In this document: positions 39,474 to 42,457 of the stretch, piece by piece
Layout: every line of letters starts with the position of its first letter
Numbering within the stretch: the first letter of the stretch is position 1
NCBI RefSeq assembly: GCF_030693405.1
Contig: NZ_JAUYAW010000046.1
Location: 1 to 64,000, forward strand
Source of the DNA: Phenylobacterium sp.
Lineage (GTDB): Bacteria; Pseudomonadota; Alphaproteobacteria; Caulobacterales; Caulobacteraceae
DNA length: 64,000 nt
Reading direction: 5' to 3'
Notes under the pieces: generated by a model
Told to the model about the DNA's origin: nothing
What the model saw: only the letters and a program-made list of their open reading frames with translations
Databases searched by the model: none
Translations under genes and position numbers: made by a program

Positions 39474-40327
39474 GCCTGCAAGGCAAGACCCTTTTCGTCA
39501 CCGGCGCCAGCCGCGGCATCGGCCTGGCCATCGCGCTCCGCGCCGCCCGCGACGGCGCCAATGTGGCCATCGCCGCCAAGACCGCCGAGGCCCACAAGCA
39601 CCTGCCCGGCACCATCTATTCGGCGGCTGAGGAGATCGAGAAGGCCGGCGGCCAGGCCCTGCCGCTGATCGTCGATGTCCGCGACGAGGCCAATGTGATG
39701 GACGCCGTCGAGCAGGCGGCGGCGAAGTTCGGCGGCATCGACATCTGCGTGAACAACGCCTCGGCCATCCAACTGACCGGTACGCTGGCCACCGACATGA
39801 AGCGCTATGACCTGATGAACCAGGTCAATGCGCGAGGGACCTACCTCACCTCCAAGGCCTGCATCCCGCACCTGAAACGCAGCGCCAACCCGCACGTCCT
39901 GATGCTGTCGCCGCCGCTGGACATGAACCCCCGCTGGTTCAAGGGCCATGTGGCCTACACCATGGCCAAGTTCGGCATGAGCATGTGCGTGCTGGGCATG
40001 GCCGAGGAGTTCCGCGAGGACGGCATCGCCTTCAATGCGCTCTGGCCGCGCACCGGTATCGCCACCGCCGCCATCCAGTTCGCCCTGGCCGGCGAAGAGG
40101 GCATGAAGAGCTGCCGCACCACCGACATCATGGCCGATGCGGCCTATGCCATCTTCAACAAGCGCTCCCGCGATTTCAGCGGCAATTTCCTGATCGACGA
40201 CACCTTCCTCTATGGCGAGGGCGAGCGGGACTTCGACAAGTACCGGGTCGACCCCACCGCCCCCCTGATGCCGGACTTCTTCGTGCCGGAGGACTCCGTT
40301 CCGCCGCCGGGCGTGAAGATCGGCTAG
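39470..40327 (+). CDS. SDR oxidoreductase, HSDL2-like
   Basis: 285-residue SDR resembling hydroxysteroid dehydrogenase-like protein 2. Seen: TGASRGIGLAIALRAARDGAN, the characteristic AAKTAEAHKHLPGTIYSAAEEIE segment, NNASAIQLTGT (NNAS in place of NNAG, as in HSDL2) and the catalytic YTMAKFGMS. The C-terminal tail GNFLIDDTFLYGEGERDFDKY is also typical of that group. Family members are linked to fatty-acid metabolism. ATGA overlap with the preceding SDR. Role in the operon is inferred to be acyl or CoA-linked catabolism. Confidence 0.9.
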   Translation: MSLQGKTLFVTGASRGIGLAIALRAARDGANVAIAAKTAEAHKHLPGTIYSAAEEIEKAGGQALPLIVDVRDEANVMDAVEQAAAKFGGIDICVNNASAIQLTGTLATDMKRYDLMNQVNARGTYLTSKACIPHLKRSANPHVLMLSPPLDMNPRWFKGHVAYTMAKFGMSMCVLGMAEEFREDGIAFNALWPRTGIATAAIQFALAGEEGMKSCRTTDIMADAAYAIFNKRSRDFSGNFLIDDTFLYGEGERDFDKYRVDPTAPLMPDFFVPEDSVPPPGVKIG

Positions 40328-40338
40328 GGCGCAGGGCC

Positions 40339-40935
40339 ATGAGCGCCCCGCCCGTCACCGTGCTGCAGGCGAGCCCGGAGGAAGAAGCCGCCATCCGCGC
40401 AGCCGTGCGGGCGGTGAACGACCGGGTGCTGGCGGGACCGGAGCATGTGGAGGGGCTGCTGGCCCTCTTCCTCGATCCCCGGGTGTCGGACCCGATCTAT
40501 GACCTGCCGCGACCGTTCACCCACGACAGCGTCGCCCAATGGGTGGCTGACAGCCGGGGCGCCCATGATCGCGGGGAGTGCATCCTGTCGGTGACCCTGG
40601 ACGAGGCCGGAGAGGTGGCGGGCTATTCCCGCATCAGCGTCTGGCCCGACCGGTCTTCGGCCGAGATCGCCGGCGGCGCCCGGGCCGACCGCCAGAACGC
40701 CGGCCGGGGGCGCGGCGGGGTGTCGAACGCCGCGACCTTCATGTTCGAGACCCTGGGCGTGCGCCTGATCGGCCTGACCGCGGCCCTGGACAATGTCCGC
40801 TCCATCGCCGCGATCGACGGGGCCGGCTTCGTGCGCATGGGCGAGCGGGAGACGGTGCGGCCCGATGGGTCGGTGCGGCGGAGCCTCTATTGGGAGCTGA
40901 CCCGGGAGGCTTGGCGGGCCGGGCGCGAGGGCTGA
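40339..40935 (+). CDS. GNAT family N-acetyltransferase
   Basis: 198-residue acetyltransferase-like protein. A GNAT fold is suggested by the strands around ECILSVTLDEAGEVAGYSRISVWP, the acetyl-CoA region GRGRGGVSNAATFMFETLG and the C-terminal LDNVRSIAAIDGAGFVRMGERE block, typical of RimJ/L-like enzymes. The substrate is unknown. Starts 11 bp after the HSDL2-like gene, so it closes the operon. Repeat copy 3 follows 30 bp after its stop. Confidence 0.75.
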   Translation: MSAPPVTVLQASPEEEAAIRAAVRAVNDRVLAGPEHVEGLLALFLDPRVSDPIYDLPRPFTHDSVAQWVADSRGAHDRGECILSVTLDEAGEVAGYSRISVWPDRSSAEIAGGARADRQNAGRGRGGVSNAATFMFETLGVRLIGLTAALDNVRSIAAIDGAGFVRMGERETVRPDGSVRRSLYWELTREAWRAGREG

Positions 40936-41428: not shown

Positions 41429-41534
41429 GGGAGCGCTCCGGGGCTGTTGAGGCTCCCGCCGTTAAGCAAGAACCGCGCCAGCCCGAGACGCACTGCTTAT
41501 CGCCGTCGACCCAACGCGGATTTTCCATAGATCT

Positions 41535-41692
41535 CAAGGCTTGGCCTTGGTATTTGCGAAGGCATGGTTCGTTTCGCCATGACTTCAGCCGCGACCAATT
41601 GCATCCCCCTTGCGGGGCGTGGAGCCGGCTGCGTGCGCGACACCTAGCCGTCGATCCAAGCCCCGCCGAGGACGGCTGGGGCTTGTTCTTTG
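41535..41692 (+). ncRNA. Candidate structured ncRNA or attenuator leader with terminator
   Basis: In the 305-bp gap before the RimJ-like gene: hairpin CAAGGC-TTG-GCCTTG (41535-41549); a long imperfect stem TTGGT..ACCAA closing GCGAAG-g-CATGG / CCATG-a-CTTC-a-GC (41547-41598); CCCC-TTGC-GGGG (41606-41617); and a terminator CAAGCCCC.GCCG / CGGC.GGGGCTTG followed by TTCTTTG (41657-41692). GCGGGGC at 41612-41618 can instead pair with the terminator arm GCCCCGC (41660-41666), the layout of an attenuator. No clear promoter and no known RNA family recognised. Independent sRNA or cis-leader are both open. Confidence 0.5.
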
Positions 41693-41733
41693 AAAGCATG
41701 TATCCCGGCCTCCCAACTCGAGAGACCTTCGAC

Positions 41734-42318
41734 ATGCCCTTCCTGCTGCCTCTTCCCGAAACGCCCCGTCTGGAGACGGACCGACTAGTCCTCCGGCCCT
41801 TGAAGGTCGAAGACATTCCGGCTGTTCAGCGTCATTTCCCGCACTGGGCGATGGTGCGCCACCTCGTGGCGAAAACGCCTTGGCCATACCCAGCCGATGG
41901 GGCGGAAACCCATGTCCGCGCGTGCCTGGAGAAACGCGCCCGCGGCGAGCAGTTCTACTGGGCGATTACGTTCAAGGACGGAGACGACGAGCTGATTGGC
42001 CGCATCGACCTGCGGCCAGACGCCGACGTCGGCGCCATGCGTGGCTTCTGGCTGGCTCAGGAATACTGGGGCCGCGGCCTGATGACGGAAGCGGCCGACG
42101 CGGTGAACGCCTATGCGTTTGAGGTGCTGGACTGGCCCTTCATCGAGGTGGCCACGAACAGCGCCAACCGGGCGTCTCAACGCATCAAGGAGAAGCAAGG
42201 CTTCATCCTCCTCTATATGAGCGTCGGCGAGTATGTCGAGGGTGTCAGAGAGACGGCGTTCTGGCGGCTCAATCAGGAGGCATGGCGGTCACGCCGAGGA
42301 GACGCGACCAGTCTCTAA
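41734..42318 (+). CDS. RimJ/RimL-like GNAT N-acetyltransferase
   Basis: 194-residue acetyltransferase. ETPRLETDRLVLRPLKVEDIPAVQRHF is the usual RimJ-type start, RGFWLAQEYWGRGLMTEAADAVNAYAF holds the acetyl-CoA loop, and ATNSANRASQRIKEKQGF the C-terminal helix. Probably acetylates a protein N-terminus or a small amine. The track start at 41554 would read through the terminator hairpin at 41657-41692, so I start at 41734 after CGAGAGACC; ATG 41698 is an alternative. Its expression may depend on that upstream hairpin. Confidence 0.88.
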   Translation: MPFLLPLPETPRLETDRLVLRPLKVEDIPAVQRHFPHWAMVRHLVAKTPWPYPADGAETHVRACLEKRARGEQFYWAITFKDGDDELIGRIDLRPDADVGAMRGFWLAQEYWGRGLMTEAADAVNAYAFEVLDWPFIEVATNSANRASQRIKEKQGFILLYMSVGEYVEGVRETAFWRLNQEAWRSRRGDATSL

Positions 42319-42429
42319 GCTTCGGAAAACGCGAGGACTGTGGATCCGGTTGGGCTGGTTGTAGAAGGTCCAATCGCCGTTGGGGTTCGCCGGTGCGAGA
42401 ACCATCCGACTCCCTCCAAAAATGCGAAA

Positions 42430-42457
42430 AGGCCCCGGCGCTTTCGAACCGGGGCCT
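42430..42457 (-). terminator. Intrinsic terminator between convergent genes
   Basis: AGGCCCCGG / CCGGGGCCT stem with a 10-nt loop. On the minus strand it is followed by TTTTCGCATTTTT, a good terminator for the minus-strand SDR at 42489; the plus side is followed by CGTCGTTC. Confidence 0.8.

Follow-up and report, generated by a model that had tools for sequence, protein, structure and literature searches.

Attenuators of the trp/his/ilv type, including the Caulobacter ilvBN and trpS leader (PMC4117421), combine a translated leader ORF with three mutually exclusive pairings, termed 1:2, 2:3 and a terminator-like 3:4. In the translational attenuators of ermC and cat (PMC5418344), a ribosome stalled on a leader ORF reshuffles the hairpins, one of which holds the downstream ribosome-binding site; their targets are modifying enzymes, and cat is itself an acetyltransferase. 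The aac/aad leader RNA, a proposed aminoglycoside riboswitch, is a structured leader that hides the ribosome-binding site of an acetyltransferase-type gene. Leader-ORF attenuators have rarely been catalogued outside amino-acid and clinical resistance genes, and no GNAT attenuator in these bacteria was reported in the literature searched. Here, we describe a candidate from a 64,000-nucleotide stretch of Phenylobacterium DNA (hereafter, the window), where an initial sequence-only reading had proposed a structured RNA or attenuator at 41535-41692, ahead of a GNAT gene. On comparative evidence, we consider this element to be a ribosome-mediated attenuator, with a probability of about 0.85.

The GNAT locus shares the presumably translated leader ORF and the exclusive pairings with the trp/his/ilv systems, but its leaders have no run of cognate codons, its target is a GNAT rather than a biosynthetic gene, a hairpin over the presumed ribosome-binding site is added, and in Reyranellaceae the U-tract is missing. 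With ermC and cat it shares the leader ORF, the predicted stall-driven reshuffling, a presumed downstream ribosome-binding site that may lie within a hairpin and a modifying enzyme as target, although GNAT and cat belong to different families. Unlike ermC and cat, it has an intrinsic-terminator-like hairpin before the ribosome-binding site in the window species, no demonstrated inducer and a leader peptide that is not conserved; because of the latter, drug-specific nascent-peptide stalling appears unlikely. The aac/aad leader RNA is similar in general plan and differs in its aptamer core and Rfam family, neither of which is found here. The features of the locus are as follows, all on the + strand.

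41531..41563, + strand: probable promoter, with a -10-like GGTATTTG around 41549-41556 (homologue comparison)
41564..41647, + strand: leader ORF, 27 codons plus TAG, encoding MVRFAMTSAATNCIPLAGRGAGCVRDT
41594..41602, + strand: predicted decision codons ACC AAT TGC (Thr-Asn-Cys), from occupancy folding and an AAN codon at the same place
41605..41609, + strand: segment 1, CCCCC, which forms protector hairpin 1:2 (loop TTGC) with segment 2 (swap tests and compensation in genome G045)
41614..41623, + strand: segment 2, GGGGCGTGGA, common to hairpin 1:2 and antiterminator 2:3 (folds, swap test)
41655..41668, + strand: segment 3, TCCAAGCCCCGCCG, common to antiterminator 2:3 and terminator-like 3:4 (swap tests)
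41673..41684, + strand: segment 4, CGGCTGGGGCTT, 3' arm of hairpin 3:4 (folds, swap tests)
41683..41691, + strand: U-rich tail TTGTTCTTT of a possible intrinsic terminator (sequence; weak or absent in several homologues)
41704..41714, + strand: segment 5, CCCGGCCTCCC, able to pair with segment 6 or 4 (conserved GGCCTCC; 5:6 covariation in Reyranellaceae)
41720..41727, + strand: segment 6, GAGAGACC, presumed GNAT ribosome-binding site region (alignment, Reyranellaceae swap test)
41734..42318, + strand: GNAT acetyltransferase, the putative regulated gene, 194 aa (orthologue alignment)

The GNAT protein matches Pfam Acetyltransf_3 (RimJ/RimL type, E 4e-30), and protein comparison found only weak similarity to characterised enzymes. 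A competing 254-aa ORF start had been dismissed from the sequence alone, and correctly so, since the homologues fit a start at 41734; as also stated there, and as read from the sequence, this ATG lies 42 nt past 41692. Another Acetyltransf_3 protein is encoded on the same strand at 40327-40935. Downstream of the GNAT gene, a below-threshold Rfam match to asX2 at 42370-42457 is driven by a GC-rich, terminator-like hairpin.

The leader ORF, which overlaps segments 1 and 2 and so runs through the hairpins, is the key part that the sequence-only reading lacked; its attenuator idea is largely upheld, while a stand-alone structured RNA or ligand aptamer is disfavoured by a leader that is probably translated. 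Searching at the DNA level identified the leader in further genomes of the genus, and a covariance model (R1) built from 11 genus leader sequences matched 34 of the 101 genomes at genus level and 33 of the 299 at family level. Strong matches precede GNAT, with its ATG about 47-62 nt downstream, and the weaker ones inspected precede other genes. In total, leader and GNAT occur together in 23 Caulobacteraceae genomes (the window species and 22 others, almost all Phenylobacterium) and at 25 orthologous loci of the Reyranella/Enhydrobacter type. Class-wide model searches contributed a single further Reyranella-type case (L162), so the element is not a general feature of Alphaproteobacteria. Two other class-wide matches (L163 and L164) were spurious, and a short second match in the window's genome (L002) proved to be unrelated coding sequence. 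No such leader precedes the Bradyrhizobium GNAT orthologues inspected (L122, L124, L126, L130, L138 and L153). Five of these (L122, L124, L126, L138 and L153) follow a gene with a MutM/Fpg-looking C-terminus, the name being based on a zinc-finger motif. One orthologue, L020 in genome G013, has lost the leader ORF and hairpins 1-4 and retains, upstream of its ATG, the stretch with segments 5 and 6.

All 23 Caulobacteraceae leaders preserve the start, the open frame and the stop; in their alignment, start and stop fall in register, and indels within the ORF come in multiples of three. The Reyranellaceae leaders (MLRQDPRMTSATKGTFGAGKVVRVRLI-like) have a matching ORF at 25/25 loci, and as these were chosen partly by peptide motif, the presence of the ORF is by construction, while its equivalent position and its conservation are not. 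The peptide itself is hardly conserved, with pN/pS values of 0.98 in Caulobacteraceae and 0.79 in Reyranellaceae; since start, frame and stop are nonetheless retained, selection appears to act on translation and on the RNA while sparing the peptide. Some Reyranellaceae leaders shift frame after hairpin 1 and end at the same place via TGATCTAG, which has stops in two frames. The codons over the 1:2 hairpin spell T-L-A-G-R in GNAT leaders and, in another frame, P-S-R-G in related methyltransferase leaders, so the hairpin is kept as RNA. No run of codons for one amino acid was found among the 23 and 25 leaders, which mostly have a single AAN codon just before hairpin 1 (Asn in 21/23 Caulobacteraceae, Lys in 25/25 Reyranellaceae).

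Upstream of the leader ATG, homologues carry TGTGCTATG or GTTTAC-17-CTATGT, with 7-10 nt between its end and the ATG; in Reyranellaceae, the -35-like GTTTAC is clear and lies 17 nt from the -10-like element. With this element so close to the ATG and no Shine-Dalgarno sequence in the homologue upstream regions, the leader ORF is probably leaderless or nearly so, with transcription starting at the 41564 ATG or just before it. Leaderless mRNAs are common in Caulobacter, where 375 have been counted (PMC4117421). This revises the 5' part of the element as originally drawn. An outer TTGGT/ACCAA stem had been proposed, and its 5' arm (41547-41551) falls in the promoter-like region before the conserved ATG, so that it is probably promoter DNA rather than RNA, and we rejected it as an RNA stem. 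The GAAG.CATGG/CCATG.CTTC stem, which overlaps the start of the leader, is not preserved among homologues. Of the 41535-41692 interval, the first ~29 nt are probably promoter, and the element continues to the GNAT start, giving 41564-41733.

The central pairings fared better. Both the GCGGGGC at 41612-41618 and the CCCCC-TTGC-GGGG hairpin (41605-41617) are present, as is the terminator hairpin, a bulged AAGCCCCGCCG-AGGA-CGGC(T)GGGGCTT at 41658-41684 with TTCTTT after it. The three exclusive pairings inferred from them exist by folding and are supported by homologues and covariation: 1:2 is CCCC/GGGG, and 2:3 joins GGGGC-g-TGGA (41614-41623) to TCCA-a-GCCCC (41655-41664). Folding energy is -29 kcal/mol for 2:3 alone and -18 for 3:4, a hairpin not listed by a simple terminator scan.

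To measure covariation, a swap test was used in which the duplex energy of each species' own segments is compared with that of segments exchanged among species (2000 permutations, relatedness uncorrected). In Caulobacteraceae (n = 23, kinship ignored), z-scores were -4.4 for 2:3, -4.7 for 3:4, -1.8 for 1:2, -1.8 for 4:5 and +0.3 for 5:6, with -2.6 for an upstream extension of 1:2. The corresponding Reyranellaceae values (n = 25, kinship ignored) were -3.3 for 1:2, -3.3 for 2:3, -4.5 for 3:4, -4.3 for 5:6 and -0.2 for 4:5. Because the controls fell between -1.6 and +1.9 and 4:6, tried as an exploratory pairing, reached -1.9, a z near -1.8 is no evidence. The 2:3 and 3:4 pairings covary in both groups and 1:2 clearly in one, while the alternative 4:5 pairing had no covariation support in either (-1.8 and -0.2). 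In the alignment, genome G045 carries a compensatory GAAGCC/GGGGCUUC for 1:2, and in both G045 and G012 the changes in segments 1, 2 and 3 match one another. The absence of a recognised Rfam class also held, as a search of the locus and its homologues gave nothing near threshold over the element.

Might these be ordinary GC-rich palindromes with no regulatory role? The modest folding z-scores, -2.1 on the + strand and -2.6 on the other, would suit that explanation, and as both strands fold about equally well, we rejected any argument from stability alone. Against it stand the conservation, the in-frame indels and the covariation seen in two orders, which leave it barely credible; it is through conservation and covariation, stability aside, that the element appears to stand above chance.

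The output of the switch seems to differ between the two lineages. The tract after 3:4 is TTCTTT in the window species, there is little or none in several Caulobacteraceae, and none was seen at the 25 Reyranellaceae loci, where hairpin 5:6, over the presumed GNAT ribosome-binding site, covaries instead (z -4.3). Output in Reyranellaceae is therefore probably translational, and the conserved output is probably control of translation at least as much as termination, which may have been added in some Caulobacteraceae. The translational arm is drawn mainly from Reyranellaceae; in the 23 Caulobacteraceae the 5:6 swap test gave no covariation signal, although GGCCTCC of segment 5 is conserved there. 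The two lineages permit a direct comparison of a terminator-type and a translation-type output from what looks like one ancestral layout.

The consequences of stalling were predicted by occupancy folding, in which a ribosome footprint is set at each codon and the leader is folded; this is an equilibrium calculation and takes no account of the timing of folding during transcription. In the window and many homologues, simulated stalling frees 2:3 only within a short codon window just before hairpin 1. For the window leader, the antiterminator opens with the A site at codons 10-12 (Ala-Thr-Asn), robustly over several footprint sizes. For the Reyranella leader L095, it opens mainly with the A site on the Lys codon, and the model favours 2:3 when this leader is unoccupied. 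No clear switch was obtained for G046, G009, G130, G111, L123, L116, L099, L113 and L115, among others. As a mild control, given that the leaders are His-rich, the procedure placed a His codon in the A site for 4/4 His leaders of the same layout.

Comparison establishes the ORF, the pairings and the gene linkage; where transcription starts, where ribosomes stall and in which direction the locus responds are inferred. Transcription would start at the leader ATG or immediately before it. If the leader were translated fast, or not at all, hairpins 1:2 and 3:4 would form; 3:4 would halt RNA polymerase (plausible in the window species, with its TTCTTT), and the next hairpin, 5:6, would cover the GNAT ribosome-binding site, so that little enzyme would be made. 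A ribosome stalled just before segment 1, with its A site near ACC AAT TGC, would mask that segment, allowing 2:3 to pair, blocking 3:4 and permitting GNAT expression.

The stall may be caused by general translation stress or by scarcity of one tRNA. We favour a general slowing of translation, whether from compounds that target the ribosome or from broad starvation, since the leaders lack a single-amino-acid run and the peptide sequence is under little constraint. Tentatively, the element could then sense translation stress and induce a GNAT that might modify either a ribosomal protein or a compound directed at the ribosome, with the peptide irrelevant and the output having moved between termination and translation among Alphaproteobacteria. 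If the switch does sense stalled ribosomes, it offers a handle on the GNAT substrate. Less probably, the element is a his/ilv-like tRNA-charging attenuator that senses the codon conserved just before hairpin 1, for Asn in Caulobacteraceae and for Lys in Reyranellaceae. The AAN codon is the most nearly universal leader codon and often lies in or beside the decisive A site (AAA in L095, L107, L103, L132, L102 and L121; AAC in G051), and Asn also occurs at a comparable position in the leader of another GNAT gene of the window's genome. Each leader has only one or two AAN codons, however, compared with six or seven codons for His in the leaders of that kind; AAN lies partly inside a paired arm, where RNA structure may explain its conservation; the decisive codon differs among species (T, C, G, S); and the GNAT has no link to Asn or Lys supply.

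A terminator-ended leader would give a ~120-nt RNA, and this RNA or a small protein might act elsewhere, with GNAT control secondary. There is precedent in the Sinorhizobium trp attenuator, whose leader peptide acts in trans (PMC7298713). The strict GNAT linkage, the near-neutral evolution of the peptide and the missing U-tract in Reyranellaceae make such a product improbable. A new class of ligand-binding riboswitch would account for the exclusive pairings, the expression-platform-like hairpin and the missing Rfam match; yet the ORF passes through all of segments 1 and 2, and the alignments reveal no conserved unpaired aptamer-like core and hairpin loops that vary freely, so we regard it as slightly less probable still.

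Because similar leaders precede hisS-like and asd genes, a SAM methyltransferase gene and the second GNAT gene of the same genome, the layout appears to be an attenuator plan common to Caulobacteraceae that has been extended to new genes. The second GNAT leader (L158, C32:52381-52500) has a leader ORF encoding MILASHRGNCSYRPSRGRTDVRLRA and similar hairpins before a different GNAT paralogue (C32:52564), and an alignment shows it conserved in at least four further genomes of Phenylobacterium. His-rich leaders of the same layout precede hisS-like genes (L069, L070, L072 and L075), and a Thr/Ile/Met/Lys leader, likewise of this layout, precedes an aspartate-semialdehyde-dehydrogenase-like gene (L071). 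At five loci (L065, L066, L067, L068 and L074), an attenuator-like leader of the MLHRAAQIMTSTIAPSRGVGGRARD type lies before a class I SAM methyltransferase, which is distantly similar to the daptide methyltransferase model.
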